In this document: piece by piece, positions 6,001 through 64,000 of the stretch
How positions within the stretch are numbered: position 1 is the first letter of the stretch
Layout of the letters: every line of letters begins with the position of its first letter
Origin: Nereocystis luetkeana
Taxonomy: Eukaryota > Sar > Phaeophyceae > Laminariales > Laminariaceae
Length of the DNA: 64,000 nucleotides
Direction of reading: 5' to 3'
Assembly (NCBI GenBank): GCA_031213475.1
Contig: JARUPZ010000021.1
Span: forward strand, 3,741,545-3,805,544
Translations under genes and position numbers: made by a program
The notes under the pieces: model-generated
Databases searched by the model: none
What the model was told of the DNA's origin: nothing
Seen by the model: the letters and a program-made list of their open reading frames with translations, nothing else

Positions 6001-9000
6001 GGTCTTGTTGATGGTGTTAGTGGTGTTGATGATGATGGTATTGATGTAGGTGTGGGCGTGGTGGTGTTGGTAGTGTTGCGGCGTTGTTGGTGCTGGTGTT
6101 GGTGTCGGTGGTGGTTTTGGCGTTGTTGGTGTTGGTGGTGGTGGTGGTAGTGGTGTTGTTGGTGGGGGTGGTGTGGTTTATGTTGGCATTGTTGCTCATG
6201 GTGTTGGTGTCGGTGCTAGTGGTGGTACTGTTTGTGTCTGTGTTGGTTGTGTTGGTGCTGGTATTGGTGATGTTGATGGTTTACCAGGTACCAGGGTAGG
6301 TGTTTGCGTTGATGTTATTGTTTTTGGCGGTGCTTTTTTGTTACTGATGTTTCTGTTGTTATTTCGGGTTGTGTGTGTGCTGTAGTGTTCGTGTTTGTGT
6401 TGCTGTTGTTGGTGTTGCTATTTGCTGTTATCTGTCGCTGTTGTTGGTATTGTTGTTGGCCTACTGATAGTAGGTGTTCGTTTCAGTTTTGCTATTGTGG
6501 GTATTGCTATTTGCTGCTGCTGTTACTTATAGCTGTTGTTGGTTTCGTGAATTGTTGCTGTATTTGCTGTTGTAGTTTTTTTGTGGCGGCGTGCTGCTGG
6601 TGTGTGGTAGCGGTGTCGCTGGAGGTGTCGGCGTACCTGGTACCAGGTAGGTGTTTGTGTTGGTTTGGTTGGTGTTGCTATTTGCTGCTGCTGTTATCTA
6701 TTGCTGGTGGTATTTTGGAGTTTTTTTGTGTTGGCGTTGTTGTTGATGCTGTGGGTGAAAATGTCTGTGTTGGTGTTGTTCCACGTGATGCTTTTGGCTG
6801 CTGCTATTGGCTGTCGCTGTCGGTGTTTTGACTTTATTGTCGTTTTTGCGTTGATACCGTGATTTTTTGTGATGTTTCGTGCTGTTGTGGTTGTTGCTGT
6901 TGTTGTTTTTCTTCTCCGAGTAGATGCATTTTGTTGCTGTCGTCGTTTCTGTTATTCACTACCCGGTCTTTGTTTTTGAGGTGTTTTTGAAGTCGCTGTC
7001 GTCACTGTTTTGTGGCAGTTTTTGTCCGTTGTGTCTCCCGTCTCTTGCTCGTCGTTGGCCATCTCTTGCCGTCTAATCTTATCTGTTCTATCAATCGTGT
7101 CATCTAGTCTACAGTTTGCTCATGTGATGTAGCTGCTGCTCTCGTATAGTGTTGGTGGTGTTGTTCTGGTTGTTGCTGTTGGTGTTGTTGTGGTTTTTGC
7201 TGTGGTCTGCGGTTGTTCTTGATACTGTTTTACGAAGTATTAGTGTTGGTGTTGTTGGTGTCATCAATTTTTACTTGTCGTTGCCTTTCTTTTTTTGTCA
7301 CGCTGCTGTGGTTGCCCGCTGTGTTTCGTTATTCTCCCTCCCTCCCTTCGTTGTGCCCCCCCCCTCCCTCCCCCCCCCCCCCCCCTCTTTTGATCGCGCT
7401 ACGAAGCCATATTTTCCCGTCCATCATCCTCTACTACCTTATTACGGGGGCCTCCCTCCCCCCCCCCCCCCTCTTTCGATCGCGCTACGAAGCCGCCATA
7501 TTTTCCCGTATGTCATCCTCTACTACACTATTATGGGGGACCATAGTTAATAGGACCAAATATTGTTAATAAAAATGGCGAAATATATAGGTTTTTGTGT
7601 GTACCGTAGGTCCTATTTAATATGGTCCCCGTAATATCAGTAGTCTCCCCTAGTCCAACCCGATGCCGCCTCACCTCATCTCGTCGCGTCTCCGCTGATG
7701 TCGATGTCGCGCCGCACGTTCCACAAATTTGACGAACACAATCTCCAGATGAATCTTGATGCTATTTTTGCCGCCATGAAATATTGTGCAACATTAGCCG
7801 TAACATCCAGATCCCACCGGACGAAGCATGGGCGCAAGAGCCGTGTCATGCAGACCCAACCCGGCAAAACATCTCTCGCGGGCGATCGGCTGAAAATCCT
7901 TCAGTTAGTTGGATGTTTCTGGGGCTGTTCGCGGGTCATGACTTGACCCGCGGGTCGATTCAGGAGGTCTTCAAAATCTCACATGTTTGGTCGAGTCGGG
8001 TCAAGAGTAAGGAGGTATTAAACATCATCCGGGCGGGTTGCGGTGGCTGCCGTCCCGCTTACGTGGTACCTGGTATGTAACTGTGATCTAAATCGTACGG
8101 AAAAATTACATCAGGGGGGATCTGTTCGCCTCGAAGGACCTACCGTAGCTCATAAATGGGGATCTTATATGATCTGTGATGTGATCTGTGATATGTTTGT
8201 GTTAGGCTCAGCGAGACCGCTTTCGGCGACGAATCAAGGAGCTCGAGGCGGAGAGGGAGGACGAGCAGAGGGAAGCGAGGGGCGCCCAGACGGTGATGGA
8301 GAGCCTCCAGAGAGACAACCTACAGCTTTACGAGAAGGCAAGTAGGATACTCCCCCCCCCCCCCAATCGAAATTGCGGTCGATGCATGCTTCCTCACCGT
8401 GTGCTTCAGTTGCGGTAGTATCTCTTGGCCAAAACATTCATTTCTGACGTGCGGGGCCCCTCCTTTGAAGCGTAAAGCGTACCACTCATCCGAGAAAATT
8501 GTTTACACAACACTGTGCGGGAAACGAATAGAATTAACCCTATACCCGTAACCCTAAGCCAATCAGACCAATCCTAACCCTGACCCTAAGCCTATCTGAC
8601 CAAATCTCGAACAACTTCTAGGCTCTACTGCCTCAACGGAGGAAGTACCCAACATGGTGAACCCAGCTGAGGAACTACCCAGTACCACGTATGGTAAACC
8701 TACTCGCTCCACTCTGTCTGCGCTGACTGCGTCGAGTAGAAGAGTTTATCCCCTTTGCCCAACAGAACACAAAGTCGTGTTTTGCGTGCTATTCGCTTTT
8801 TTGTTCTTGTTTGTTTGTTTTTCTCCATCCTACTCGTCATCCTTGCGCTTCTCTCCCGCCCCCTCACGGTAGTAGAGGTCACATAGCGGGCGTTCATCAC
8901 CCTCCCCAGTACGGTACACGCCTTGAGTTTTATCGGGGGGGGGGGGGGGGGGATTCAGCATTTCTCCCCCCTTCGACTCGCGTTGTTTTACATGCTGTAG

Positions 9001-12000: not shown

Positions 12001-14737
12001 CACTGTACTGCACATACATAACACACATACCTTATTTTACCTTCAAGTACTCTGTCCCCGAAAAGGAAGAGCAGTCCTTAGGGGCCAATTCAGCCTTGGA
12101 AAGTGCGAATTTCAAATGCACAACATTACATGCGCGCGTACGCCACCACCTGGGCCTCGCCTGCCACGTTGTTGCTGCTGTTGTATTTCTTCTGAATTAT
12201 TTGATGTTGCGTGAAATATTATTCTTTGTTCTTGTTCTTGTTATTGTTTACTTTATTGTTGTTGTTGCTGCTGTTGAGGTCGCTGTTGTTGATGATAATA
12301 TTGGTGAATGATGGTGATCTTATAAAGAGATGCACCAGATGTACATATATATTTTTTTTTATGCTAATGTTATTGCTGTCGTTGATGTTGATGTTGATGT
12401 CGTTGTTAATGTTGATGTTGATGTTGCTGTTGATGATGTTGCTGCTGTTGAAGCTGCGTTGATTTTATGCTATTAATAGTGTTTATTTTCTACGTTGTTT
12501 CCGTTGGCTCTTTGTTTGTTTGTAGCTGTTGCATGTTGATGTAATGGTGTTATAGACGTTGCGGGTGCTGATTTGTCGCTCTCTGGTTGTTTGTGATGTG
12601 GCGGCTGGCTTTAGTTTTTGGGTGGTTGATCATGATGTACAGTAGTTGTGTCGTTGGTGCTTCGTGTGATTATAGTTGTTGCTGTTGCTGTTGTTAACTG
12701 TTGTTGTTGCTGTTGCTGTTGTTTGCTGGTACTGTTGCTGTCGCTTCTGCGGTTGCGGTATTAATTGCTGGTGCTGGTGCTGCCCATGCCACTGCCGTTT
12801 GCTGGTGCTGTTGCTTCGCTGCTGCTGGCGCTGTTGTTTGCTGCTACTGCCGCTGTGGCAGCTGCTACTGTTTTCGGTTGGTTGATGTTATTTTCTTGTG
12901 GCTGTCCCCCTCGGCTGTCTAAATCTCGTCGCATGAGCGTTGCAGACAGCCTTTTTTCGGTTTCATGGAAATAAAGCACAATCGCATAGTACCAGGTACA
13001 GTACCTGGTATACAATACTGGTACGAACCTGGTTTTGATGGCATTTCATAGGTGCGTTTTGAACGAAAACTGTCAGAATGTGTAGACCACTATACCAATT
13101 ACAGACCCCGTACGATAGTGCGCGCGATCGAAGTATCACACACGGCTGTTTTTTTTTGCGTTATCAAACAACGTCAAGTGGCAAGTAGCAAGTCGACCCT
13201 CAGTCCCTATTACGCCGCATGACAGTTACATACCGCGTTCTCGTTCGCCTAGAATTCTAGTGATGTACACCAGGGAGTAAAATAGTATAACGGCAAGTAG
13301 CAAGTCCGCCGTGCTAATTCCGCCGCATGAGCGTTACAGGCCGTTTTCTCGTTTCGCTAAATGCTACCAGGTATCAAACAACAAGTCGGCGCGCCGTCTT
13401 GATTGCGCCGCATGAGCGTTACAGACCGTTTCATGTTTTTCGCAGGATAATAGGATGATACCAAGTAGCAGGTCGACCTGCCGTTAATCGCGCCGCATGA
13501 GCGTTACAGACCTTTTCCCCATTTTTTCATGAGCTTGCAAAGTTGAGTTTGAACCACTCCATCGGTCGTACTCACAGCTGACGCATTTGTCACTTTTTTG
13601 TATAACGATGAACAAACACCTTGCGCGCCCGATGTATCTCTTAGTTTGCAAAGTTGAGTACCAACCATTCAATCAGTCGAACTCACACGTAACCCTGGCG
13701 TATTTGTAATACTGTTAGCAACACTAGTCTCTGGTTCTCTTGCGCGGCGGCGGTGGTGTGCAGTGTACCTACCACCATATCTATGCGTGCTCCTGTTTCC
13801 ATCTCTATCAGTATATTAGTCGGTAAATATAGGCGTTCAGCCCTCCCTCCCGTCTCGAAAATAAGAGATACCTGGTAGTAAATTAGAAGGGAACGACTAA
13901 AAGACCCGAATTTACCAACATGCTTGGCTACCTACGTTTTCTACCAAAAAGAGAACAATGAACACAAGTGAAAACAGAAATAGTACAGTAGCCAGCAATC
14001 CCCCGCAGCCCCCCCGTGTCTGCCTGGTCGGTGAAAACCCGACGTGGTCCGTTCTGGTATTGTGCAAATGCGGGGAGGGTCTAAGGCCATATGAATTCGG
14101 CCATGCATGACATGAGCACACCTCCACCCTTCGCCCTGCTCCCCCCAACAGGCGCGGTGTAAGGTGTTCACCAGAATTACTGTTGAATTGTACCTGGTAT
14201 AACATCAGTCTCCGACGTAAAACGAACTAACGATTCCTGGAAAGGGCATCGGTATCTCATCAACTCAACCGCTCCCCCCCGTCCCTCGCTAACTCTCCCT
14301 CTCACGGACGCGCGTTTTGCCTTTGATTTTCTCCCCCGGGCCGCTCTCACTGCCTCAACGACGACATCCGCAATCGGGAACAACGACAATCAACAACGGC
14401 AACTACTGCTGCCACCACCGCCCCACAATTACCACCACCACCACCATCATCACCACCACCAACACCACCACCACCACCACTCCCACCACCACCACCACCA
14501 CCACCACCACCACCACCACCACCACCACTCCCACCAACACCCCACCACCGTCACCACCAACCACCATAACGAACCACCACCACAACTACCACCGCGGACA
14601 GAAATTTCGTGTTTTTCTACGTTGTGACCCTGCACTTGGTGGTGTTCTTCACCCTCAACTACTGGAGCCACTCCCACAACGCTAACTGTGGGGACGGCGA
14701 TACCCCCGACGCTGTTATGAAGCCGAATCCGTGGTAG
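1..14737 (+). CDS. CASP: CASP-type Golgi coiled-coil membrane protein (3' part, 7 exons)
   Basis: Exons read 629-793, 1157-1252, 2171-2668, 8206-8337, 9843-10021, 10822-10965 and 14602-14737; all junction phases agree and give about 449 residues to the stop. The order matches CASP, the Golgi product of CUX1/CDP-like loci: coiled coil with an LRQQLRMLQ-LEFN block, an RLEEDL block, AQRDRFRRRIKELE, an RFLQSY block, the YEARINPFTQFSQKEKQRKY block, and a C-terminal anchor with the family's Tyr and His (FFYVVTLHLVVFF). CASP proteins are tail-anchored in Golgi membranes, project a coiled coil into the cytosol and take part in golgin-84/COPI vesicle tethering (family knowledge). The N-terminal half lies upstream of the window. 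Oddities: a Gly-rich stretch in exon 3, a GC-AG intron after exon 4, and a 3.6 kb last intron. Identity is strong; exon 2 is the least certain. Confidence 0.9.
35..100 (+). pseudogene. Degenerate partial copy of the CASP exon at 629
   Basis: The run from GGCTGCGGTTAAATGAAGG to GACGGCGGCAGCACCACGG follows the 5' half of the exon at 629 almost base for base, with gaps (GGCTGCCCTTAAGG...GAAGGATGCG...GTGGAGACGGCGG). In the matching frame TGA interrupts it. It lies about 600 bp upstream on the same strand, as expected for a local exon duplication that decayed. Confidence 0.5.
300..620. repeat. Diverged tandem GTGGGGATCTGATCTG repeats
   Basis: Repeats of about 35-40 bp built on TGTGGGGATCTGATCTGTCC, with many substitutions, fill the sequence up to the CASP exon at 629. 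Confidence 0.6.
629..793 (+). CDS. CASP: CASP exon a: coiled coil, LRQQLRMLQ-LEFN block
   Basis: Acceptor TTTGCAG|GC, donor GGG|GTGAGC, 55 codons, phase 0 at both ends. Ala-rich coiled coil ends in EVRALRQQLRMLQQLEFN, a block found in plant and animal CASP before an acidic linker. First exon fully inside the window. Confidence 0.85.
1157..1252 (+). CDS. CASP: CASP exon b: acidic linker (probable)
   Basis: The stretch opens in frame with 32 codons, starting Gly-Asp rich and ending SHVERTMEQ before a CAG|GTGAAC donor. Length 96 keeps phase 0 between the exons at 793 and 2171. The acceptor (AAAAAAG|GG) lacks a good pyrimidine tract, so the 5' edge could be wrong or the exon optional. The acidic linker position fits CASP. 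Confidence 0.55.
1640..1895 (+). repeat. Dispersed repeat family C, copy 1
   Basis: Contains ATGCATGGCCGTA, CCCTCGCATCCCTACAAT, GAGCACGTCGGTTTTTCATC, GCGCGAAGCGCCATGAGG and ATGACAGCGTCGAA in fixed order, as do the copies at 3650, 15835 and (reverse) 13985, 39370 and 45205. A G-run usually precedes it. About 250-300 bp, no coding capacity seen. Confidence 0.7.
2171..2668 (+). CDS. CASP: CASP exon c: coiled coil plus Gly-rich insert
   Basis: 166 codons, phase 0, acceptor AAAAG|GTG, donor CAG|GTGCGT. The first ~65 residues are heptad-like and end in VNRLEEDLASAF, the CASP RLE-DL block. About 90 Gly/Ala-rich residues follow, partly encoded by GGTGGT/GGTGTT repeats like those in the next intron. 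The exon ends DHGVLGIVQ, which joins directly to AQRDRF as in CASP. Confidence 0.85.
3122..3215. repeat. GGGTC/GACCC pentamer palindrome
   Basis: GGGTTGGGTCGGGTCGGGTC then, in reverse, GACCCGACCCGACCCGACCC form an inverted arrangement around TCATCACCTCATGGGCCGGG. Related to the blocks at about 7930, 24060, 53085 and 56205. Confidence 0.65.
3401..3504. mobile_element. MITE family B, copy at 3.4 kb
   Basis: Terminal inverted repeats TATTACGGGGGRCC / GGTCCCCCCGC enclose the family core with CCTATATATTTAC. This copy is in the reverse core orientation and is diverged. Confidence 0.7.
3645..3965 (+). repeat. Dispersed repeat family C, copy 2 (internally duplicated head)
   Basis: Two successive heads (TTATGCGTGGCCGTAGTCGT and TTATGCATGGCCGTAGTCGT) each follow a G-run of 10 or more, then the common body with GGGTTTTCATCGACCAGG and GCGCGAAGCGCCATGAGG. 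Confidence 0.7.
4310..6300. repeat. 2-kb GGTGTT/GTTGGT hexamer array in CASP intron
   Basis: Almost only G and T on the plus strand, built on GTTGGTGTTGGTGGT with drift. A 145-bp block at 5856-6000 is repeated at 6001-6145. Long open frames through it (Val/Gly on plus, His/Thr/Asn on minus) are artefacts of the repeat. TACCAGGTA motifs sit at its 3' side. Confidence 0.85.
6300..7320. repeat. T/G-rich low-complexity tract (TGTTGCTGTTGTTGG)
   Basis: Continues the GT-rich asymmetry with TTGCTG/TTGTTG units and T-runs up to a C-rich boundary near 7330. No exon seen. Confidence 0.6.
7529..7636. mobile_element. MITE family B, copy at 7.5 kb
   Basis: TATTATGGGGGACCATAG ... GGTCCCCGTAATA with a nearly consensus core. 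A lone TIR fragment (TTATTACGGGGGCC) lies about 90 bp upstream at 7438. Confidence 0.85.
8206..8337 (+). CDS. CASP: CASP exon d: AQRDRF coiled-coil block
   Basis: 44 codons, phase 0. AQRDRFRRRIKELEAE then MESLQRDNLQLYEK match the conserved CASP segment before the RFLQSY block. Acceptor GTTAG|GCT. The only donor that keeps the frame is AAG|GCAAGT, a GC-type 5' splice site; the GT four bases later would shift the frame. Confidence 0.9.
9312..9416. repeat. (TTCG)n/(TTCA)n microsatellite
   Basis: GTTCGTTCG passes into TTCCTTCC, then about 17 TTCA units and again TTCC. In the CASP intron before exon e. Confidence 0.9.
9440..9680 (-). repeat. Dispersed repeat family D (reverse copy)
   Basis: Carries GTGTAGATCTGCGTA, GATCCAACCCAAGAAACACG, CGGCTCCCACCCGGCAACAT and AATGATCTAGGCC, the complement of the D copies at 11690 and 20560. 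Confidence 0.55.
9843..10021 (+). CDS. CASP: CASP exon e: RFLQSY block and Gly-rich linker
   Basis: Starts VRFLQSYQRN, a CASP signature, then a poorly conserved Gly/Ala/Ser linker. Acceptor AATCAG|GTC, donor GCTAG|GTGAGC. It ends in phase 2 and its last two bases complete an Arg codon with the exon at 10822. Confidence 0.88.
10822..10965 (+). CDS. CASP: CASP exon f: YEARINPF...NKFAR block
   Basis: Spliced reading is RYGQLYEARINPFTQFSQKE onward to FLGNKFAR, the most conserved CASP segment (animal version YEERLDPFSSFSKRERQRKY). Acceptor GGCTCAG|G, donor GCCCG|GTGGGT, phase 2. The next intron is 3636 bp. Confidence 0.93.
11690..11965 (+). repeat. Dispersed repeat family D with nested MITE
   Basis: Left part ATATCTAGCTCATGTTTGTT to ACCCGCATGATCTGC, right part TTGGATCTGTACTGTACAGG to GATGAGGAACTAGATGATCT. 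A family B MITE (11737-11848) splits them. Confidence 0.6.
11737..11848. mobile_element. MITE family B inside repeat D
   Basis: TATTTACGGGGGGCCATAG to CTGTGGCTCCCCGTAA with the reverse-oriented core (GGTATACACAAAAAACTC). Confidence 0.8.
12170..12890. repeat. TTG/TGCTGT low-complexity tracts in last CASP intron
   Basis: GTTGATGTTGATGTTGATGT at 12376-12450 and TTGTTGCTGTTGCTGTTG runs at 12670-12890. No exon detected between exon f and the terminal exon. Confidence 0.6.
12920..13520. repeat. Diverged tandem repeat, CGCCGCATGAGCGTTACAGA unit
   Basis: About five units of 110-120 bp share CAAGTAGCAAGTCG and CGCCGCATGAGCGTTACAGA. One unit has TACCAGGTA exactly where a sibling reads TA. A second short duplication (TTTGCAAAGTTGAGT) follows at 13534 and 13650. 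Confidence 0.7.
13985..14165 (-). repeat. Dispersed repeat family C (reverse copy)
   Basis: CTGCCTGGTCGGTGAAAACC, then CCGACGTGGTCCG, GGGGAGGGTCTAAGGCCATA and GGCCATGCATGACATGAGCA are the complement of the family C body and head. Confidence 0.7.
14428..14585. repeat. (CCA)n tract before the last CASP exon
   Basis: About 150 bp of CCACCACCACC with CCATCA and CTCCCA variants end only 17 bp before the CASP terminal acceptor. It replaces a normal pyrimidine tract. Confidence 0.9.
14602..14737 (+). CDS. CASP: CASP terminal exon: membrane anchor and stop
   Basis: Acceptor CGGACAG|A completes the split Arg codon and gives NFVFFYVVTLHLVVFFTLNYW, the tail anchor of CASP with its conserved Tyr and His, then a short tail ending KPNPW and TAG at 14735-14737. 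The exon is hidden behind a (CCA)n tract and is open in a frame that other readings obscure; phase and homology make it firm. Confidence 0.93.
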
Positions 14738-15810: not shown

Positions 15811-15834
15811 AACGAAAGAGCGCGATGACAATCC

Positions 15835-17032: not shown

Positions 17033-17219
17033 CCCGGGTAGATTTGCTGTATCTACATTTTTCGGGGACAAGGCCGTTAAGTGATACCTGGTATATACCC
17101 TGGATGTTTTTAATTGAAATATAGGTGGTCAATGTCTACAACAGGGTATGTACAGTAGTACGTACTCGAACAAAAACCAAAAGGGTTCACATCCCGGACA
17201 GAGCATATAATTCCACTTG

Positions 17220-19479: not shown

Positions 19480-19484
19480 CATGA

Positions 19485-55600: not shown

Positions 55601-58600
55601 GAAATCCGCCCAAGGGCGTTTTATATATTCTGTACTTGGGGGCGTTGTGTTACGGGTGTTTTTGGACCATTTCTAATGGTAGGGATCGCCAGACATCGTC
55701 CTTCGTCTGCATGTGATCTTATCCCCGATCGCTCCGTCTTTTTTTTCTTTTTTTCATGGATGATGGTGATTCTTGCAGGTGGTGCTGCAGAAGCGTCAGC
55801 AGGAGGCGGCCAAGCGTCACCGGGAGTACGAGCAGAAAATGTCCCGGGAGATTCAGGTGTGTGCTCTGCTCGTGTAGTGTTGGGAGGCTTTTTTTTCCAA
55901 GGGGGGTGTATGTAGCCCCTGATGATGTTTCGGTTTTGTGGAGATAGGGGTGGTGGTGTTGGTGGTGTTTTGCGGTGTTGGCGTTTTTGTCGGAACGATG
56001 GCGGGGGTTGGGGTGGTGTTGGTGTTGGTGATGTTAGTTTCGGTGGCGTTGGTTGAGGTGGGGGGGTTAGCGTTGGTATTGTTGATTGCTCTCGTCGGGG
56101 GTTCTCTTGTTGTTTATGGCGCTGTCGGTGCTGGTGTGGGTGTCGCCGAAGTATTCATCTGCGTTCGGTTGGAGCTTTTGTCAATTTGTAGGTTTACTCT
56201 CCTCAGATCAAGAGCCGACCCGCCCGACCTGACCCGAGCCGATGCGATCCGACCCGACCTGACCCGACTCGATCCGACCCGACCTGACCAGAACCGACAC
56301 ACGATATTTTGAGGACCTGACCCGACTCGATCCGACCCAACCTGGCCCGACCCGACCTGACCAGAACCGACACACGATATTTTGAGGACCTCTTCTACAA
56401 GGCCCGCGGGTCGGGTCGTTATCCGTGAAAAGCCGTGGAAATATTCACCGTGCGAGTTTTTTTTGTCTGTTTTTTTTTTTTCTTTTTCTTTTTGGCTAGC
56501 GCTGATTGGTCCACTCCACACCTGCTTTTCTCTCCCTCTGCCCAGGCGATGCGAAAGAAGAGCAACAAAGACCTACGGCACATGAGCAAGATGGAGCTGG
56601 AGGTCCGCAGGCAGAAGGCCGCCACAGCGAGGAAGGTCACGCAGGTGCGATGGAAAGCTGGAACCCCAGAGGGAGTCTGTGGGGCGCTTACAAGAAGAGA
56701 GCACAGTAATCAGGACAAAATATGCCTGGTAAAATTGCTGGAATCTATAGGTTTTCGAGTGTATGATGGGTCCTGATTACTAGTAATATGACCCGCGGTG
56801 AGACGTTGAAGTACTCGTATCTGGTAGACATCTCGCCTGATATGTGTTTTGAAATCGATAGTAACAATTTTTTTGCCTGGTACTTGGTATCCGGCATTCC
56901 GTTTTTTCGCCTGGACACAATTTCGACGTATTGTTTTTTTCGTCTTATCTGCCTCGCGACTCACAACCAAAGACGTCAGGAGGCATGTCAAGCCACGCAA
57001 AATGTGCGCCGTCGAGGTCGTCAGGTAGACTGTTCCAGACTAGATAATACCTACCATGGTAGCAGGTTGGTGTCGGTCAGGGCATGCGAAGGCGGAGTTG
57101 CTGTCTGTCAAGGGGAGAAAGTTCTGTCTCCTGACATCTTTGCTGACAACGGGCAGTGGGCACGGTATTTTTTTTTTCCAGTTTCTCTGCTGCTGCAGCC
57201 GCCATAACCGCACCGGCGAATTATTCTGTGCGGACAAACGATAGAAAGTCGGGGGAATTTTTGTGTCGCCCGCGTGTGGTCCCAGGGTTGCGAGGAGGAA
57301 AACCTCGAAACGTGCCCAAAACACCTTTTTAGTCTCTAGCCCTCACCCCGACCCCGCCCCCTACTACCCGTGTGATTGTTTTCCATGATAGATCAGGCGT
57401 TTTTTCGTTGCTGTTGAAAAAGTGGTCAACCGTGCTAAAATTTATATACCTGGTACTTCTATTTATGGAGTATGCCTGGTACCAGGTACCTGGTATGACA
57501 TAAGCTATTCTCCGATTTCCAGGTTTTGTCCTAGGTCCTACTTGACTAGTGCGGCGAAGGCTGCTGCTTTGTGGGATGCAAGACGCGGGACGGACACTGG
57601 GGGTGCTGTTGCCATTGGGTTGAGATGCGGGTATACGTGGAGACGAAACGGCGGTGTTTGTTACGCGGGCGCGGGACCGACGCCGGGTGCGCTGTTTTTC
57701 TCATTGAGCGGGAATATTGTTACACGTGGGAGCGAAACAGCAGTGTTTGTGTGCGTTTGGTATCTATTTTGGAGCATCCGTGATGCTCGGTACATACTTG
57801 CCGGATGGTTAGGTCTACCCTCTATAGTGCCCGTATGCACCAGCCGACAATACCGGCACTATATGTACCGGCAACCGGCACTATATGCTCCGCACACTGC
57901 CACACTGGTTAATTCCATCTGTGCTAAGCAATTTCACAGGCACTATAGCGAGCAGCTCGCACTATTGAATCGGCACTATAGAGGGGCCACTACAGTAGTT
58001 TCTCCTCCCCTTCCCCCTCCTCCACCTTCTTTCCATAACCGGTCCGACCCCTCCCACCCTTATCCCCCCCCCCTCCCTTATCCTCCTCCGCCCCTTCTCA
58101 TCTGCCCGCCCTCGCCTTCCTCCCCCCCTCCCTGTCCCTCTCCCGCCCCCCCCCCCCCCCTCTTTCCCTCCGCTCTCCGTCTTTTCTCTCTCCTGTCCCC
58201 TCTTTCCCTCCGCTCTCCCTTTTCTGTCCCCTCTTCCCCCCCCCCCCCCCCCCCCCCCTCCTAATTCCCACTTCCTCTCCAACTCCCCCAACGTTTTCTA
58301 GGTCGGACGCATGGGCGACAAGCTGAAGAAGACAGAGGAGCACCTCTTGCGCTTGTTGGCGCTGAGGAAGCAGCAGGGAGCTGCTGACCGGGCAAGGACG
58401 CGCGCGGGCAGCCGACGCGGTGCGGCTGCCGCAGTGGCGGCAGCAGCCGGCAAGACTGGAGTTGCTAGTGGTGCTGGCGGTGGTGGTGTTGGCGCCGGTG
58501 GAGGGGGTCCCAGTGGTGAGGCTGGGTTTGGTTTCTTTGTCTGGTTTTGGTTTGGTTTAGTTTTGGTCGGTTTGATTGGATTGGGTTTGGTTCTGTTTGA

Positions 58601-59199
58601 TTGGGTTGGGTTTGGTTCTTTGGGTTTGGTTCTGTTTGATTGGTTGGGTAGCGGTTAGGCAGCGGTCTTGGTGACCCCCTGATATTCGCGTTATCTGTTA
58701 AAAAAATGCCTCCATATTTTATTTCGGTGCCATTCCAAGAGCAAGGATTAGCTAGGAGGTATCTCGTGACGAGAAGTAATCGTGACAGATAGCCTGCTTA
58801 TGATAACATGCTGAAAATGTCACGAATGCTGTTTTTTTTTCATCGAGAACCAAGTTTTTTTTTTTTTTTTTGCAAACAGTGACTTTTTCGTCACGAAAAT
58901 CGTCGATATATACATACCAGGTATATATATATATATATACATATTTGCGTTTGTTAAGAATTTTGTCAAGTCTGTGCTGATTTTGTTTTCCACGTCGGTA
59001 TGAAGGGGGTGGCGGTTACAACCATGTGAGCTAAACATGGCGCCCATCCCGTCTGTTATGGTAAAGAGGGGTAATTGTTGGGCGCTCAAATACCGATTTT
59101 TTGTGACACAAACGCCTACGAACGATGCCATGCGTTTTTGGAAAGGTCACGACTCGCTAATAGTTCCGTCGCGGAGTAGTGGTTGTTTTGGCACGGGTC

Positions 59200-59251
<52 letters not shown>

Positions 59252-62200
59252 TTTTCATGATCATGAATTGTCACCCCTCTTCCCCGTCATTTATTGCACG
59301 TCCTGCACGAATCTTTTGTTTGTTTGTTCGTTTGTTTGATAGGAATAAACTGGCCTCACCTGGCAGTATACACAGGATATCGTAGATCATGATCTGTCTT
59401 GAGGCGTGAAATAGTGTGTACCAACGTGTGTGTGTTTTTTTCTTGTCGCAGGGCGCTTCGACAAGGCGGCGGCGGTAGCGGCGGAGTCAGCGGAGGCTAG
59501 AGTTTTCGCGGCCAAGCACCTCCTCGATAGGGCCGTGGCGCAGAGGGTAGAGCAGGCGGCGCTCAAGCAGACGTTCGCGGCTAAGATTCGTTCGTACGAC
59601 GAACAGACGTCTCTGCAGGTGAGGCCCGGAGAGGGAGCAACGGGCAGAGAATGTAGGAGGGATTCGGTGGGGGGGGGTGGCGATGGGGGACGGCAGGTTT
59701 GTTGCCGCTTCTTCGGGGATATTGTTTAGGGTGACTGCTGGGCACGATAAAAAAATTGAACCACAGCAGCAGGGACCCCTCTAGAATGCCGGTTGAATAT
59801 TGCCGGTGCCAGATGTAATGCCGGTGGAATATATTGACACAGATGGGGTTCACCAGTGTGGTAGTGAGCGGAAATATTAGTGCCGGTGTCCGCTGTATAT
59901 AATGCCGGGGTGTTAGCCTGCCACTTATCGGCACTATAGAGGGACCGCTATTTGCAACCCTAAGCCAACAAGGGTTGATTTTGTTGGCGTACTGCACACG
60001 GCCGTATATTTGTTTTTTCAATTTTATTTCCAGGTGTGCAATATTGGCATGCTGCGGAACTACAGGGCTCAGCTTCGGGAGGTGAAGGAAGGCGCCAAGG
60101 AGTCTGGCGACGGCAGCCGCGCGGAGGCGGAAAACGTGGACCCAGGCGGCGGCGCTCGCTCAGGAAGCAGCGGAAACACGAGGGACGGGCGCCCGGGTAG
60201 GCCATGCGTCTTGTTGATGTTGGGTGCTGAGAGAGGGGGGGGAAGTTGTGCTCTCATATCATAGGTTTATTGTTAGTAACTACCTGGTAGGTATCGGTAG
60301 ACAATTTCACATATCTATCCTACTGTGAGGACAATAGTCTATTGTACCGGTATGTTCGAACCTGTAGGTCGAATACATTGGTATCGATATGCAATACACC
60401 AGCTTATTGAGAGGCGGTGTGGGCGCGGAGGGGAAGGAGAGAAGGGTCGATACTGGAGGGGGGCAGTGAGGGAGGAAGTGAAGCTATGATATGCCGTGCC
60501 TGCTGTGGCCGTCGGATGGGCCATTTTTTTTTTTTTTTGTTTCTGGATACAAAACATATTGGTAGGCCCGGCGTTTCGTAGGTGGTGGTACGGTGCGGTG
60601 GAGGGAGGGAGGGAGGGAGGGAGGGTGTGGATGCGGAGGGAAGGAGGGCGGGAGTGGGAGTGGAGAGAGGGAGGGAGCGAGAGAGGGTGTTTGTATGGTA
60701 TATTCAGTGCCCGCTGTGGCTGCCATATTGGGCTACTCGCTGGGTGGCGAGAGAACCGATAGGTCATGCGTTTAGTTGGTGGTGGTGTGTGTGGGTGGAG
60801 GGAGGGAGGATACGATTCTGCTATAGTGCCTGCTGTCGGCGTCGGATCGGCCTTTTATGTGTGTGTTTTTTTTCTGTGGATGACGCAGGAGACAACGGCG
60901 CGCACGGAATCTTTTTCTCCCTGCTTCTGTAACGACTGCGGTGGCTGTCGGAAACGACCATCCTTTTTACACCAGTCCCTGGATACGAAACAACAGAACA
61001 CTCGCTTCACTGCTGTTCCTATTTTGTTTTTGTCTTCATTTCTTGGGGACGGAACACCCGCCTTTATACGAGCAGTCCCTTTTGTGTTTTTAACGCGGCG
61101 AAAAAAAAAGGCGAGTGAAAGAGGCGGCTTGATTTCCTCAGGAGTGGTTCCTCTATGTTTTCGGTATTTGCCCGGCCAAAACACCGGCACTATGGCTGGC
61201 ACTGGCACTATTTCTTTATACGTAGACGACGAGCGCCTAGACTACATGCGTACCTGGTACTACGTACCAGGTACCTGTTACTTTTTTCTCTTCTTTTTTG
61301 TTCAAGTCTGTGTCAAGGTGCCGCGTTGGTTACGGGTATGTGAACGCGGGGGTGCAAAGCAGTAGCAGTAAGTAGCCCTGAGTGAGAGTCTTGGGCTGAT
61401 CGCGGCTGAGAGGAGCCATCTACCCCAAAATGTTCACGAATTAATGTGACGACGGAATATTATCTGGAGCACATTTCCTATTAATAACAGTTTGTTTTTT
61501 TTTTCGTTCAGGAAAGACCGGTAAATGTTGTAAAATCGCACGTGTCCAGTTTTTGTGTTGTCAACCAATCAATACAGGTCCTACAAGTGTCGGATATATC
61601 CCTCCTTTGAGACTGCTGCACGCACGTTTTTTTTTCGCGTGGGATTTTTTCTGCGGTAGCAAGATAGTAAACGCTGTCCTTGACGCATTCGTTTTGCACA
61701 GGTGTGGGCAGGGGTGGCGATGGGAGTACCAGCAGCGGCGGAGGTGCCACGAGGGGAGCGGGGGGTCGGAAGGCTGTGGTTATGGCGGCCGTGAGGGCGT
61801 CGATCGGAGACGTGGACACTCTGGATGGGCAGCGGGCTGTGCTCGAGGCGCTTGTCCAGGAAACCGAGAAGGTGAGGGCATTGGTCTTCCGAGCGGGGCG
61901 GGATGGGGTTGGGTGAGAGCTGGCTTCGGCCGGGTGGATGCGTCTTTGTCGCTCGAGTTTTGAGCTCGGGTGTCACGTAGGGCAACTTTACCGTGTGCAT
62001 TGGTGCGGTGATCCCTCTGGGGCTGTTGACCATCGTCCTTGGAGAGGCGGAGGGGGCGAAGCGAACCTTGCGTGAATTAACTCTGTACGTGCAGTAGCTG
62101 TAGAGGTGGTTATCGAAACCTATCGTGGGCATTTCGGGAAACAACTTTTTGTTCTGTTTTTGTCGATGCTGGCGCGGGCGCTCTCGCTCGAAGCTATTAA

Positions 62201-64000
62201 TAGCTCGCTCCTGCGCAATCACAAAAATACGCACGCCTCGGTTTTTTCATGGCCGTCCAGGCGGTAGACGAGACGCAGGAGCGGCTGGAGGTGCTGAGCG
62301 GGGAGCTTGACGACATGTGTCGCCGCCTCGGCCTGGGCGACAGCTTCCAGGTGCGCCAGAACGCTCGACGGAACGCTCCTCGAAACGATTCTCAAATCGT
62401 TCCGTTTTGTTTTGCTCGCGTTTTGTTCGTTTTGTTTGTTCGTGTTTCTTTTATCAACTCGTTCCGTTTTTTTGTCATGTTTGGTTTTCTTGTTTACTCT
62501 CGTATATTTATACTTTTGTATATACACAGTTTTTTCAATATCATTGCTCCTGTTTTTTTTTGTTTTTGTTTTTTTTTCGTCGCGGCCGCGGGACAGGGAC
62601 GAAGCGTCGTCACCGACCACAAGGGGGGTTTCGAGTCTTCCGACGACGTTGCCGGGGGGAGCGGGGGGGACAAGGGTGCCGCCGATTCTTCAGGCGATGG
62701 CGCCGGCATGGGCCCCCGGGAGTTCAAGGCTTTGGAGGGGTTGACCCCCGTGGAGGCCAGGCTGCTGGTGACGTCGCTTGTGGACGATGTTACGGCCTCG
62801 GGCATCGGCGAGATGCTGCAGCAGCAGGAGGCGACGAATCAGGTGGGCGGGCCGGCCGGGGCGGGGCGGGGGGCTTCGGTTAGAGCCGTACTTGCTTACG
62901 TTTTACTTACTGTAGCCTCGTAGAGTAATAGTTTAGGGAATGTGCCTGCTGAACTCTGTTTTTGCTGCGTGTTTTTTGTCGTTGTATTTGTTTTTTTTTG
63001 TGTTTTTCAACGTTTGCGCTATATGCCTTGTCGGTCTGTTTTTGTAGTTTTGCGATGTCATGCCGACTTTGCGCCTGCTGCTGCTGGCTGACAATGCTGG
63101 GCGAGTGGCGAATTTCCCTCTATCTCTTACGAATGGAGTCCCAGGTGTATTTGTTTACTTCAGCAGTACGTACATATTTTTCGTTGTACTTGTATCATGG
63201 GTCGCCTCGGAAGTTACATCGCGTTAAGCTGACCTCTTGTTTTCTCACATGCTGTTGCTGCTGTTGTTGCTGTTGCTGCTGCTGCTGCTGCCGCTGATTC
63301 TGACGTGCTGTTGCCGATTCTTCTTCTTCCGCTGCCGCTGCTGGGGATGAGCGTACAGGCGGCGGAAATGCTGGAGCTACGGGAGAAGAACAAGTCGATG
63401 AAGGACGAGCTGTTCCGCCTCAGCCAGAGATACTCCCGGAGGATGTCGATGGTGAGCTGTTGTTTTTATTACGGGGGGCCATAGTTAATAAGAACAAATA
63501 TTTTTATTAAAAATTGTTAAATATATACCGGTAGGTTTTTATGTATACCATAGGTCCTACCTGGTATTAACTGTGGTCCCCCGTAATAGTGCGCGGCGGT
63601 GTGGTGGTTGCTGATGTTGTTGTTGCTGTTGTGAGTTGATTTTCCGTTAACGTTTTCGTTGTTGTTCTTGGTGGTGTTGGAGTGGGTGTCGCTGTTGTTG
63701 CTGCTGTTGCCGGAAACCATCCGAGGTTTCGCGTGACGTATTTGAAGTATCGTAATGTGCAGCATCCCAATCACATCAAAATTAACCCCTTTAGAAGCGC
63801 AGTTCCGTTTTTGGGGACAAACTACCAGAAATTAGAGTGGTTTGTGTTAGCAAAACGGGACTGCGGCTCTAAAAGGGTGAAGTAAGACGCGAGCCTACGA
63901 GGGAAGAACTGGCTAGATTATTCTCGCGACAAAAATGCCTCGCAAGGCAAGAACCGCCCGTAGTGGGGAGGGGGGGGGGGGAGGAGAGAACCTGCTGTGT
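32636..64000 (+). CDS. Kinesin-4/chromokinesin-like motor protein (5' part, 23 exons, runs off window)
   Basis: Exons: 32636-32863, 37884-38002, 39723-39876, 41664-41879, 42194-42298, 44431-44538, 44969-45094, 46168-46274, 49175-49313, 50069-50389, 51310-51398, 52904-53005, 53452-53620, 54162-54293, 55779-55856, 56546-56644, 58302-58515, 59452-59618, 60034-60196, 61702-61871, 62261-62350, 62597-62842, 63359-63451. All phases fit, giving about 1,145 residues. The motor is complete: [11 protein letters not shown]-loop GQTGSGKT (86-93), SSRSH (213-217), DLAGSE (249-254), [20 protein letters not shown] and [11 protein letters not shown]. The N-terminal motor and the downstream coiled coil [17 protein letters not shown] then [13 protein letters not shown] resemble KIF4/KIF21/FRA1, plus-end motors of spindle, cargo or wall-related microtubules. 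Exact subfamily is inference. The MAESAKV start is chosen because the motor's first strand begins at once; an upstream in-frame ATG exists at 32510. Confidence 0.9.
33643..33751. mobile_element. MITE family B, copy at 33.6 kb (kinesin intron 1)
   Basis: TATTTACGGGGGACCATAG to CTATGGTCCCCCGTAG. Confidence 0.87.
33989..34084. mobile_element. TTAA element family A, copy at 34.0 kb
   Basis: TTAATCCTTCTAGTGTTGC to AAACGGGACTGCGGCCCT and AAAAGTTAA. Confidence 0.7.
34336..34504. mobile_element. TIR element family K, copy 1
   Basis: Ends AAAGATGTCAGGAGGCATG and GTGCTGTCTCCTGACGTCTTT are inverted; length 169. Siblings at 37593 and 56969, all in kinesin introns. Confidence 0.75.
34634..34731. mobile_element. 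TTAA element family A, copy at 34.6 kb
   Basis: TCAACCCTTTTAGGACCCC to GTGCTAAAAGGGTTAA. It ends 2 bp before the family N element. Confidence 0.8.
34733..35555. mobile_element. Family N non-autonomous TIR element, copy 1 (~820 bp)
   Basis: Left end GGCCGGTCCTAACGGGGG is the inverse of right end CCCCAGTTAGGACCAGCC (about 16 of 18). The interior has no convincing ORF but contains GCGCACGATGGCCGAGGTAG and TCGCCGGGAATCACGTGCTG, shared with the adjacent copy. Confidence 0.75.
35551..36372. mobile_element. Family N element, copy 2 (direct tandem neighbour)
   Basis: Begins AGCCCTAACGAGG [11 protein letters not shown] after copy 1 and follows it in the same order (GAGCACGTGTGATTTTTATC, GCGCACGATGCCCGAGGTAG, TCGCCGGGAATCACGTGCTG). 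Visibly diverged by substitution; the right end is not clearly recognisable. Confidence 0.7.
37593..37753. mobile_element. TIR element family K, copy 2
   Basis: CAAAGATGTCAGGAGACAG to GACATGTCTTCTGACATCTC, opposite orientation to copy 1. It lies 130 bp before kinesin exon 2. Confidence 0.75.
37884..38002 (+). CDS. Kinesin exon 2: P-loop
   Basis: [20 protein letters not shown] holds the ATP-binding P-loop. RRGLIPR at the end is the kinesin G-IPR motif. Donor CCCAG|GTGCTC, phase 2. The GGTAACG array starts within about 10 bp of the donor. Confidence 0.93.
38010..38700. repeat. GGTAACG/GGTAGCG array in kinesin intron 2
   Basis: Starts about 8 bp after the exon 2 donor. Same hexamer alphabet as the 23.4 kb array (GGTAACGGTAGCGGTAAC) with heavier drift. 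Confidence 0.88.
38826..38927. mobile_element. MITE family B, right end lost next to a family A fragment
   Basis: TATTACGGGGGACCATAG to CTGTTTACTGTGGTC, then directly TGCCCTTTTGGGACTGTGG, which resembles a family A half. Confidence 0.75.
39365..39660 (-). repeat. Dispersed repeat family C (reverse copy) before kinesin exon 3
   Basis: TTGACGCTGTCATCTATGTG, CTCATGCGAATCGCCCAACA, GCGCTTCGCGCTTGGTGCAA and GGGTCTATGGTCATACGACT are the complement of C. A 17-base C-run follows at about 39679. Confidence 0.75.
39723..39876 (+). CDS. Kinesin exon 3: [14 protein letters not shown]
   Basis: Completes the split Arg codon, then reads FLYDMFMNL and [15 protein letters not shown], the kinesin S-LEIYNE--DLL motif. 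Acceptor CCAAAG|G, donor CAG|GTGAGC. Confidence 0.92.
39989..40640. repeat. (TTG)n and degenerate GGGTTTGG/GGTTGGGG tract
   Basis: About 15 TTG units, then a G/T-rich drifted repeat fills most of kinesin intron 3 up to the MITE at 40.65 kb. Confidence 0.75.
40651..40760. mobile_element. MITE family B, copy at 40.7 kb
   Basis: TATTACGGGCGACCATAG to CTATGGTCCCCCGCAATA, near-consensus core. Confidence 0.88.
40843..40945. repeat. Family M partial copy
   Basis: GGTCCCTCTAGATATGGTGC and CTGCTCACACTGCCACAGGG correspond to family M blocks; the right side is not recognisable. Confidence 0.45.
41493..41610. mobile_element. MITE family B with TACCCTGGTA insertion
   Basis: TAATGCGGGGGACC to CTATGGTCCCCCGTAGTAG. 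The core reads ATATACCCTGGTAGG where siblings read ATATAGG. A second end fragment (TTCCCCCGTAATAG) at 41650-41663 supplies the exon 4 acceptor. Confidence 0.85.
41664..41879 (+). CDS. Kinesin exon 4: switch I
   Basis: 72 codons, phase 0. [20 protein letters not shown] is the switch I region. The acceptor AG is the last two bases of a family B MITE-end sequence (CCCCCGTAATAG|GTG). Confidence 0.92.
42194..42298 (+). CDS. Kinesin exon 5: switch II
   Basis: [20 protein letters not shown] is kinesin switch II, and GIQINQ leads into GLLALGNVV of exon 6. Acceptor CCCTCAG|ACC, donor CAG|GTTCGT. Confidence 0.93.
42340..43270. repeat. ~95-110 bp tandem repeat with TTGACGGACAGCCGTC
   Basis: Units share CTTGACGGACAGCCGT, CTTGGCGTGTCSGTTGACGG and AAACTAGTATRTTYAGTCT. 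The first 200 bp hold shorter GACAGCCGTCAAG units. Kinesin intron 5. Confidence 0.8.
43410..43890. repeat. ~120 bp tandem repeat, four units
   Basis: Units share GAGAGTGTGACGGYRTACGG, CTCGAAACGGGTCCSTCCC and TTGTGGATTTGTGAAAA. Two units carry TACCWGGTA where siblings read TAC. Confidence 0.8.
44431..44538 (+). CDS. Kinesin exon 6: [12 protein letters not shown]...SKLTRLLQ
   Basis: 36 codons containing [14 protein letters not shown], the conserved microtubule-binding loop and helix of the motor. Acceptor TTTGGCAG|GG, donor CAG|GTATGA. Confidence 0.93.
44969..45094 (+). CDS. Kinesin exon 7: end of motor domain
   Basis: [18 protein letters not shown] and [12 protein letters not shown] close the motor near residue 352. 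The downstream coding is neck and coiled coil. Acceptor TTTCAG|GAT, donor GTG|GTGAGT. Confidence 0.93.
45205..45345 (-). repeat. Dispersed repeat family C (reverse, short)
   Basis: GGTGCAAGCAATGTATGTCA, CGACGTGCTCCGTCCCGGCA and GCGATGCACGGC match C in reverse. C-rich tracts follow to 45660, with a head fragment at 45662-45700. Confidence 0.6.
46168..54293 (+). CDS. Kinesin exons 8-14: neck, Gly/Ala linker and coiled coil
   Basis: Exon 8 (46168-46274) has the post-motor [13 protein letters not shown] helix. A GTTTGG at 46243 could also splice but would run exon 9 into a stop; GTGAGA at 46275 keeps the frame. Exon 9 (49175-49313) is acidic. Exon 10 (50069-50389) is Gly/Ala rich. Exons 11-14 are charged helices ([73 protein letters not shown]). 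Exon 13 may end at 53620 (AAG|GTCGGC) or 53629 (TCG|GTAGTT), both phase 0. A possible extra exon begins at about 54039. Confidence 0.78.
46334..46436. mobile_element. MITE family B, right end degraded
   Basis: TATTACGGGGGCCATAG, good core, right TIR reads ACTATGGTCCTATTTTGC. Confidence 0.8.
46610..46795. repeat. Dispersed repeat family L
   Basis: GCAGCCCGATGAACAATC, GGTAGAAGAAGCCCCGTCA and TATCGGAACTCGCG match 28000-28175 (CCCCGATGAACAATCCCA, TTAAGAAGCCCCGTCACTCG). Two copies, about 170 bp. Confidence 0.6.
47010..47116. mobile_element. TTAA element family A, copy at 47.0 kb
   Basis: TTAACCCTTTTAGGACTGC to GGAGTTCTGAAAGGGTTAA with perfect TTAA flanks and an internal GACAATTGGAGACAA variant shared with the 50.9 kb copy. 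Confidence 0.9.
47878..47973. mobile_element. TTAA element family A, copy at 47.9 kb
   Basis: TTAACCCCTTTAAAACGCAG to GTGGTTCTAAAGGGGTTAA, TTAA on both sides. Confidence 0.9.
48186..48912. repeat. 30-bp minisatellite with higher-order repeat
   Basis: About 24 units of GTGTTATATTATCACCCGTG plus TGATGCGGTA; a five-base-longer unit recurs at 48298 and 48483, giving a 185-bp higher-order period. TCACCCGTGTGA can form a hairpin. Unit length is a multiple of 3, so both strands stay open with 10-residue peptide repeats, but it lies in kinesin intron 8. Confidence 0.92.
49615..49645. repeat. 31-base poly(C) run
   Basis: Uninterrupted C from 49615 to 49645 in a kinesin intron. The longest of many C or G runs in the window. 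Confidence 0.95.
50909..51014. mobile_element. TTAA element family A, copy at 50.9 kb
   Basis: TTAACCCTTTTAGGACTGC to GGAGTTCTAAAAGGGTTAA with TTAA both sides. Closest sibling is the 47.0 kb copy. Followed by drifted CGTTTCCCGTGTCCCG repeats up to kinesin exon 11. Confidence 0.9.
53085..53330. repeat. GGGTC pentamer block in kinesin intron
   Basis: CTGTTCACGGGCCACGACCG, mixed GGGTCGGGT units, a run of about ten GGGTC units at 53235-53283, then CCCGCTCGACCCGACTCGAC in reverse. Confidence 0.8.
55261..55375. mobile_element. MITE family B with TACCTGGTA insertion
   Basis: TATTACGGGGGACCAGAG to CTATGGTCCCTCGTGA. Core ATATGTACCTGGTAGG versus ATATATAGG in siblings. A lone right end (GCCCCCGTGA) abuts its left end. 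Confidence 0.85.
55385..55570 (-). repeat. Dispersed repeat family D (reverse copy)
   Basis: CGTGATCTGTAAAACACAG, CCAACCCAGGAAACCTG and GCTCCCTCGCGGTAACGTG, complement of D blocks. Confidence 0.55.
55779..63451 (+). CDS. Kinesin exons 15-23: C-terminal coiled coil
   Basis: Exons 15 ([20 protein letters not shown]) and 16 ([18 protein letters not shown]) follow LKRQK of exon 14 and parallel the QKVxLQRKIKQE to RQKMVLQRKTEEA coiled coil of KIF4-type kinesins. Exon 17 continues with [19 protein letters not shown] and a Gly/Ala tail. Exons 18-23 are helical with acidic/Gly linkers, including [20 protein letters not shown] and [20 protein letters not shown]. All nine exons have consensus splice sites and matching phases. 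The last donor in view is ATG|GTGAGC at 63452; the next exon is not visible. Confidence 0.78.
56205..56425. repeat. GACCC pentamer block, internally duplicated
   Basis: ACCCGACCTGACCCGACTCG units; AACCGACACACGATATTTTG occurs twice 80 bp apart. Ends GCCCGCGGGTCGGGTCG. Confidence 0.8.
56969..57141. mobile_element. TIR element family K, copy 3
   Basis: AAAGACGTCAGGAGGCATG to CTGTCTCCTGACATCTTT, same orientation as copy 1. Confidence 0.75.
57817..57988. mobile_element. Family M element, copy 3 (complete ends)
   Basis: CCCTCTATAGTGCCCG and CGGCACTATAGAGGGG are inverted ends about 170 bp apart. The interior has CCGGCACTATATG repeats. Confidence 0.75.
59203..59257. repeat. (GT)n followed by T-run
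   Basis: About 17 TG units, then roughly 22 T, in a kinesin intron. Confidence 0.95.
59772..59949. mobile_element. Family M element, copy 4
   Basis: GGACCCCTCTAGAATGCCGG to ATCGGCACTATAGAGGGACC, inverted ends. Confidence 0.7.
60590..60690. repeat. GGGAGGGA-rich purine tract
   Basis: GAGGGAGGGAGGGAGGGAGG and related purine-only sequence, kinesin intron 19. T-runs of 14-15 lie nearby. Confidence 0.8.
63467..63588. mobile_element. MITE family B with two insertions, just after kinesin exon 23
   Basis: TATTACGGGGGGCCATAG to CTGTGGTCCCCCGTAATA begins 16 bp after the exon 23 donor. It holds ATATACCGGTAGG and GTCCTACCTGGTATTAAC, both extra relative to siblings. Confidence 0.87.
63782..63881. mobile_element. 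TTAA element family A, copy at 63.8 kb
   Basis: TTAACCCCTTTAGAAGCGCA to CGGGACTGCGGCTCTAAAAG and GGTGAA. Left TTAA intact. Confidence 0.8.

Follow-up and report, generated by a model that had tools for sequence, protein, structure and literature searches.

TACCWGGTA in the Nereocystis luetkeana genome: a probable transposon excision footprint at TA dinucleotides

The TACCWGGTA motif in the window and in the genome

We analyzed a 64,000-base stretch of the genome of the brown alga Nereocystis luetkeana (contig JARUPZ010000021.1, positions 3,741,545 to 3,805,544; hereafter, the window) for the palindromic word TACCWGGTA (W is A or T), which an earlier note on this DNA had described as a 5-bp insert, CCWGG, that arrives together with a duplicated TA, and which is treated here as a putative excision footprint, or scar. 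The window contains exactly 33 such words, 18 TACCTGGTA and 15 TACCAGGTA on the forward strand, the number that had been estimated by eye. The mean over 100 dinucleotide-shuffled windows is 0.43 (maximum 3), in agreement with the previously given chance expectation of about 0.5, and the expectation under an order-3 Markov model is 0.64. Among all words of the form TA-N5-TA in the window, CCWGG is by far the most frequent filling (33 of 260), followed by GGWCC (11). The putative footprints and their variants are listed below without strand, the motif being palindromic; where no other comment is given, a site comes from the motif count.

6282..6290, footprint TACCAGGTA (motif count and shuffles)
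6289..6298, 6-bp variant TACCAGGGTA, TA common with the footprint at 6282
6634..6642, footprint TACCTGGTA, TA common with the footprint at 6641
6641..6649, footprint TACCAGGTA
8067..8075, footprint TACCTGGTA
12990..12998, footprint TACCAGGTA
13002..13010, footprint TACCTGGTA
13365..13373, footprint TACCAGGTA, sibling near 13162 with plain TA
13869..13877, footprint TACCTGGTA
14191..14199, footprint TACCTGGTA
17085..17093, footprint TACCTGGTA
17680..17688, footprint TACCAGGTA
18638..18646, footprint TACCTGGTA, inside a MITE B copy, consensus TA-85
28592..28600, footprint TACCAGGTA
28599..28606, 4-bp variant TACCGGTA, TA common with the footprint at 28592
29949..29957, footprint TACCAGGTA
30482..30490, footprint TACCTGGTA
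30505..30513, footprint TACCAGGTA
33143..33151, footprint TACCAGGTA
33962..33970, footprint TACCAGGTA
34113..34121, footprint TACCTGGTA
34566..34574, footprint TACCTGGTA
37779..37787, footprint TACCTGGTA
41552..41561, 6-bp variant TACCCTGGTA, inside a MITE B copy, hot TA-59
43470..43478, footprint TACCAGGTA, in a tandem array
43815..43823, footprint TACCTGGTA, in the tandem array that also holds 43470
55231..55239, footprint TACCAGGTA
55320..55328, footprint TACCTGGTA, inside a MITE B copy, hot TA-59
57052..57061, TACCATGGTA, a possible 3+3 product that may be due to chance
57447..57455, footprint TACCTGGTA
57480..57488, footprint TACCAGGTA, TA common with the footprint at 57487
57487..57495, footprint TACCTGGTA
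58915..58923, footprint TACCAGGTA
60281..60289, footprint TACCTGGTA
61251..61259, footprint TACCTGGTA
61265..61273, footprint TACCAGGTA
63526..63533, 4-bp variant TACCGGTA, inside a MITE B copy, hot TA-59
63558..63566, footprint TACCTGGTA, TA-85 of the MITE B copy that also holds 63526

Besides the 4-bp variant at 28599, there are six further TACCGGTA in the window, including the one at 63526; the remaining ones may be chance occurrences. Many of the 28 example positions in the earlier note are exact; others move by 1-4 bases (14190 to 14191, 17081 to 17085, 28593 to 28592, 30503 to 30505, 34564 to 34566, 58914 to 58915, 61252 to 61251), and the sites at 13869, 17680, 29949, 33143 and 61265 had been left out.

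In the entire 465-Mb assembly (1,987 contigs), TACCWGGTA occurs at 182,395 places compared to 1,744 for the reversed pattern that served as the control. This amounts to one in every 2.55 kb and exceeds the control about 105-fold, so the genome count, which the note had proposed as a test, is not near expectation. The enrichment is confirmed as real, and it is much larger than the window alone implies. Another contig contains 112 of these words within 200 kb (C5:1.0-1.2 Mb); this stretch and the window together, 264 kb with 145 intact scars, were used for the local analyses below.

Some of the sites lie in copies of MITE B, a family of miniature inverted-repeat transposable elements (MITEs) that is unrelated to the motif. 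The element is about 110 bp long, is flanked by TA and has long inverted repeats (TTACGGGGGACCATAG...); there are 86 long copies in the 264 kb and 16 in the window, for example, at 25591-25730, 40644-40782 and 63460-63604 (10-base margins included). The word TAGGWCCTA was considered as a second footprint family and rejected because its occurrences (11 in the window, 49 in the 264 kb) are almost all internal to MITE B; the occurrence at 57532 of the window looks separate from MITE B. Along contig C1, scars in MITE B (GGTCCTACCWGGTA) number 3 in the first 15 Mb and 52 at 15.1-21.8 Mb, whereas the first 276 kb of this contig are rich in TACCWGGTA itself, which indicates a large-scale contrast in repeat make-up. 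In viral contigs, TACCWGGTACCWGGTA was found in 9 stretches, which we regard as chance, and the MITE B arm in 0.

Insertion at TA, target signature and ageing of scars

The 86 long copies of MITE B were aligned and used as an insertion trap and as a source of the mutation spectrum. We found 13 footprint-like inserts spread over 11 of these copies. Nine inserts could be assigned a consensus position; each of them coincides exactly with a consensus TA and has TA at both sides, as expected for insertion with TA duplication in the IS630-Tc1-mariner group; the other four could not be placed, and three of them are at or beyond the end of the element. The sites at 18638, 55320 and 63558, which had been assigned to this family in the earlier note, are all on consensus TAs. 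Five inserts share one TA (TA-59) and read CCAGG (twice), CCTGG, CCGG and CCCTGG; thus, one TA was hit repeatedly, with different outcomes.

For the empty-site test, the insert was removed in silico, and ungapped relatives of the joined flanks were sought in the 264 kb. An ungapped relative was detected for 23 of the 145 sites, and in the ten commonest classes the relatives carry plain TA in 387 of 504 alignments. Under a stricter count, in which each relative was taken once and TA, CA or TG was accepted as an empty site, 22 sites had relatives of either form: the majority of relatives were empty for 16 sites and filled for five, with one tie, and the sums were 443 empty and 23 filled. The control consisted of other TA-N5-TA words (1,202 tested), 346 of which had relatives; only 50 of these were empty-majority, with 559 empty versus 11,886 filled relatives. 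The difference (16 of 22 versus 50 of 346) is significant (Fisher p 7e-9); it should be noted that the empty relatives are often MITE B copies and, as such, are not independent. Examples outside MITE B include arrays near 157.4-158.0 kb of the C5 stretch and the site at 43815 of the window. Among the tandem arrays previously offered as evidence, the sibling of 13365 near 13162 does have a plain TA (it reads ...TTATCAAACAAC); for 43470 and 43815, one unit of the array has TA, as claimed, and another has TG. Taken together, the MITE alignments, the empty-site relatives and the control support TACCWGGTA as a derived insertion at TA, the course of events that had been read from the window (TA became TA-CCWGG-TA), and the alignments show gain at TA rather than loss of an ancestral motif.

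When flanks are read outward from TA and both sides are pooled, the logo has W at -7 (information gain 0.163 bits), A at -6 (0.131 bits) and R, not T, at -1 (0.137 bits), compared to a maximum of 0.062 among 1000 random sets of TA. The signature extends to about 8 bp on both flanks and persists in the 115 sites that are free of MITE B words. In the 122 sites that have no TA in common with another scar, its frequency is about equal on the two sides, and each side has it independently of the other; thus, it belongs to both sides and not to one. These are marks that fit a transposase. Scars with one TA in common were found in 11 cases, as is expected if the TAs of a scar are themselves good targets. 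In 10 further cases scars lie within 50 bp of each other, compared to a mean of 4.4 and a maximum of 11 in 500 simulations; this excess of close neighbours would fit local hopping, yet it lies inside the simulated range.

Scar forms with a single mutation are in excess by about 64 over the expectation, beside the 145 intact scars. Transitions exceed the expectation by about 32 at the four TA positions together and by 11 at the four C/G positions (ratio 2.9, with a wide error). In MITE B, transitions amount to 10.6% at TA, a figure that may be inflated by subfamilies, and to 3.1-4.2% at CC/GG (ratio 2.9); over the entire element, they amount to 5.6% at A/T sites and 2.9% at C/G sites (ratio 1.9). 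Although this comparison is coarse and the counts are small, the scars decay about like ordinary inherited DNA, many of them are not recent, and the pattern is compatible with neutral ageing, which argues mildly against scars freshly made in the sequenced tissue. As a separate observation, the excess at A/T sites of MITE B amounts to an unusual T>C/A>G bias, to which subfamilies may contribute.

Outcome spectrum, source element and alternative explanations

In our view, TACCWGGTA is probably the footprint left on excision by a cut-and-paste transposon that duplicates TA and has terminal inverted repeats (TIRs) beginning 5'-CCAGG. The transposon would insert at TA and duplicate it; at excision, one strand would be cut at the tip of the transposon and the other strand 5 nt inside, such that each flank would retain the 3' overhang CCAGG. 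Two identical overhangs could then pair as C:G, C:G, A:A, G:C, G:C, and repair of the A:A mismatch to W would leave CCAGG or CCTGG between two TAs, with imperfect processing resulting in minor forms, chiefly CCGG and CCAGGG. The 5-nt 3' stagger, the A:A mismatch and the terminal sequence CCAGG are what we infer from the scars themselves. Several lines of evidence argue for this footprint: the variation of the insert between 4, 5 and 6 bp on one TA, the skew of the 6-bp form towards CCAGGG, the two-sided target preference, the nested scars and the decay compatible with neutrality.

The outcome spectrum bears on the end sequence. If the ends are CCAGG, each junction consists of a left piece of CCAGG and a right piece of CCTGG, and among the 2- to 5-nt overhangs of such an end only the 5-nt overhang is self-complementary with a central mismatch. 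The predicted minor products are CCGG, CCAGGG and CCATGG for CCAGG ends, and CCGG, CCTGGG and CCTAGG for CCTGG ends. The counts in the 264 kb (expected numbers in parentheses) are 21 (3.6) for CCGG, 8 (0.7) for CCAGGG and 2 (0.5) for CCATGG, compared to 0 (0.4) for CCTGGG and 0 (0.1) for CCTAGG. Genome-wide, there are 13,000 places with TACCWGGGTA versus 771 in the control, and the first 100 listed comprise 93 CCAGGG and 7 CCTGGG. Eight of the 93 belong to one cluster, seven of them at an exact spacing of 528 bp; with this cluster counted once, the ratio of 86:7 differs significantly from the 63:37 expected from composition (p 5e-11). At the MITE B site, the 6-bp form is CCAGGG in 26 cases and CCTGGG in 1 (p about 1e-4 against the composition background), although three of the 26 are identical over all 35 letters and may be one locus copied. 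Slippage in GG would yield both forms alike; the prevalence of CCAGGG is as predicted for ends beginning with CCAGG. The outcome spectrum thus suggests CCAGG as the end sequence. The 528-bp spacing is itself of note: seven TACCAGGGTA at this exact distance (G000 C1:1305185-1308362) form a satellite with a scar in each unit.

We searched for the source element through its predicted ends and through transposase profiles. TACCWGG ends that are not followed by TA number 95 in the 264 kb (111 when DDE_1 loci are included), and no recurrent inward sequence was found among these 95 apart from repeats that share flanks and duplicated units; of the seven most similar pairs, five reflect a shared outer flank or MITE B copies and two are borderline (17 of 30 letters). 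Candidate TIR pairs starting with TACC were traced to MITE B, to a longer dispersed repeat or, as judged by eye, to tRNA-like genes. The MITE B trap was also applied genome-wide: GGTCC-TACCWGG-TA occurs at 1,783 places (control 0), and the same left part without the following TA at 81 and 31 places (controls 30 and 8) under two patterns that barred A as the last letter, which excluded roughly a quarter of places. These 112 non-canonical places are minor scars, mutated TAs, nested scars, and one unrelated repeat or chance matches; a recurrent start GGCRACA... (five places) looks like an unrelated repeat when compared with the 264 kb. Given that none was seen, elements with shared ends would be rarer than about 0.2-0.3% of scars in this trap.

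Three groups of transposase genes came into consideration. PF03184 (pogo, DDE_1) has 28 matches in the genome, including a pogo-like family of about 2 kb (L031, L034, L044, L046 and, in part, L037) with the TIR CAGTACCGGCCCGCTAGTAAGAAA next to TA; most other DDE_1 loci have no clear TIR within 1.5 kb. This family was rejected as the source because its ends begin with CAGTACCGG (L031, L034, L044, L046) and not with CCAGG. Its expected scar, given ends CAGTACC, would account for the enrichment of TACAGTA, the most enriched TA-N3-TA word in the 264 kb (92 versus 36.5 expected), the flanks of which have C at -1 and do not have the CCWGG target logo at -7/-6. The L044 copy is inserted on the TA of a TACCAGGTA scar. 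PF13359 (DDE_Tnp_4, Harbinger-type) has 57 matches, ten of which have almost the same score and a 294-aa frame (C10:1013897, C12:5719694, C13:273115 and seven others), a group that has probably been active recently; Harbinger was rejected because its duplication is 3 bp, whereas the scar has the 2-bp TA. Finally, the IS630 model NF033545 yields 24 matches, none of which reaches the curated cut-off (best E 4e-7; frames of up to 599 aa). Ten of these places have equal C-terminal scores and open frames of 437-515 aa, and we take the equality, from the scores alone, as a sign of near-identity and recent activity. We suspect that this multicopy IS630/Tc1-like family, copies of which lie, for example, at C10:3953063-3954226, C13:368989-370152 and C2:6045860-6047026, is the leading candidate for the source. 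In Ectocarpus, 17 Tc1-mariner families have been described, with introns and low conservation hampering gene detection (PMC12477816).

Several results weigh against the proposed footprint. No full-length element with CCWGG ends, for which the earlier note had suggested a search, was recognised in the 264 kb, and the 1,783 scars of the MITE B trap revealed no recurrent end attributable to a transposon. The PF13358 (DDE_3) profile has 0 matches genome-wide, and so does PF01359 (mariner), a profile that was silent in every control genome too. The main scar, at 5 bp (with minor forms of 4 and 6 bp), departs from the 2-4 bp footprints reported for Tc1/mariner (PMC7913693). Genome-wide, TACCWWGGTA is found at 5,159 places (control 1,529), and the first 50 distinct places include 35 CCATGG, 5 CCTAGG and 10 CCAAGG/CCTTGG; the ratio of 35:5 had to be rejected as a sign of end polarity because composition predicts 78:22 (p 0.11). 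Two observations are unexplained: at the MITE B site, 67 of the first 100 canonical scars are CCAGG and 33 are CCTGG relative to the MITE (p 0.0009), and scars with a central C/G are rather numerous in the 264 kb (11 versus 1.6 expected).

Of the alternatives put forward in the earlier note, that of footprints left by a TA-targeting transposon with CC...GG ends is well supported, and that of a real ultra-short inserting unit is not supported. Such a unit, a palindrome of 5 to 9 bp itself copied into TA sites, would account for an insert that is nearly constant over 182,395 copies and for the lack of any recognised longer element in the 264 kb and the MITE B trap. However, inserts of 4, 5 and 6 bp at one TA are not what a fixed unit predicts, the 6-bp form has the polarity that follows from the arithmetic of two trimmed CCAGG ends, and we know of no enzyme that moves 5-bp DNA; we regard this explanation as very improbable. 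An element-free process, in which a nuclease would break DNA at TA and repair would fill the break with a fixed templated CCWGG, is likewise in keeping with the search results, and the target preference could equally be that of a nuclease. Nevertheless, the 93:7 polarity and the TA on both sides fit two CCAGG-bearing ends, and this process needs a separate source of the CCAGG sequence, which makes it unlikely.

Programmed elimination, in which elements present in germline DNA would be excised from the sequenced tissue, as are the TA-bounded internal eliminated sequences (IESs) of ciliates, would explain why scars vastly outnumber recognisable elements and why the TA flanks appear more decayed than the core; scars common to duplicated units fit inheritance and elimination alike. 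The flank/core ratio of 2.9 is, however, within the MITE B range of 1.9-2.9, so that, on this coarse measure, the core seems to have aged like inherited DNA, and to our knowledge there is no nuclear dimorphism in brown algae; we give elimination very little weight. That the motif is a regulatory or protein-binding palindrome under selection, as its palindromic form and enrichment might suggest, is hard to credit, given that it arises in MITEs and arrays as a precise insert flanked by TA on either side and that its decay is compatible with neutrality. Equally hard to maintain is an ancestral motif lost from repeats by 7-bp deletions: the five filled-majority sites among the 22 are in its favor, whereas the 443 empty versus 23 filled relatives and the different contents at one TA contradict it.

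We tentatively propose, as a possibility that we would not put quite at even, that one long-lived, TA-specific cut-and-paste lineage with a 5-nt stagger, present in at most a few hundred copies, left about 180,000 heritable scars. For each element there would then be at least several hundred scars, and the scars would be the main record of the transposon. For neutral scars, the rate of accrual in a lineage would equal the number of jumps per genome and generation. Under an assumed mutation rate, a mean decay of a few per cent corresponds to about 10^7 generations, and 180,000 scars over some 10^7 generations would require jumps at a rate of about 0.02 per genome and generation, within reach of a few tens of copies; thus, few copies are compatible with a very large number of scars. 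Excision scars are usually too short to count, whereas a 5-bp palindromic scar is countable well above background. Accordingly, the genome would offer a tally of jumps, rather than copies, over time from about 180,000 events, along with a target-site logo, a spectrum of repair outcomes and an age distribution, and the scars could be used to test how cut-and-paste elements persist without multiplying. Each 5-bp scar is a 7-bp change in length and would cause a frameshift in any coding exon.

Other features of this DNA include a 30-bp tandem array at 48188-48925 of the window, the consensus unit of which contains ATCACCCGTGTGAT, a near-perfect inverted repeat, and kinesin-like exons at about 32.5-42.4 kb that are split by kb-long introns (open reading frames judged by eye). 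Genome-wide, the EsV-1-7 domain has 150 scored matches among 1,718 candidates; its motifs stand in tandem within long open frames, the largest of 1,739 aa, that cluster on C1, C12, C13, C14, C25 and C26. This domain is reported to have proliferated in brown algae in a study of the Ectocarpus mobilome (PMC12477816).

Comparison with known systems

A literature search judged by titles and abstracts yielded no work that we recognised as linking TACCTGGTA or TACCAGGTA to transposons, and further searches listed none that we recognised as dealing with the motif. A close analogy is with Sleeping Beauty, the scar of which, TAC(A/T)GTA, arises from a central mismatch. Sleeping Beauty is reported to leave a scar identical to the 3-nt 3' overhangs of the element (PMC7827188). 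The TA target and the TA duplication are shared with Sleeping Beauty and Tc1/mariner, and the same logic gives TACC(A/T)GGTA; the difference is in the stagger, which is 3 nt there and appears to be 5 nt here. If this reading is correct, a 5-nt stagger would be added to those of TA-targeting transposases. Any placement in Tc1/mariner would be tentative: insertion at TA is in line with it, the length of the footprint is not. The pogo/Tigger elements (DDE_1) also target TA and are represented in this genome by a pogo-like family, the expected scar of which is TACWGTA, without the CCWGG target logo at -7/-6.

Footprints of 0-4 bp are reported for Passer elements (PMC9976928). Mariner-like excision of Stowaway MITEs is described as often retaining the target site duplications (TSDs) and bits of the element (PMC4561436); the retention of TSDs plus element remnants is alike, whereas no MITE with CCWGG ends was recognised here in the 264 kb. 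The TA-bounded IESs of ciliates (Paramecium, Blepharisma) are reported to be removed in very large numbers (PMC9942856), and the TA boundaries and the large numbers are similar, whereas the scars here decay much like inherited DNA. PIF/Harbinger elements, for which a 3-bp TNA or ANT duplication and mostly precise excision are described (PMC12477816, PMC4561436), differ from the 2-bp TA and the 5-bp scar found here, and piggyBac, with its TTAA target and seamless excision, differs in both the target and the presence of a scar. Overall, by analogy, the scar resembles the known footprints of TA transposons, with a putative 5-nt stagger that would be longer than the printed range of 2-4 bp.

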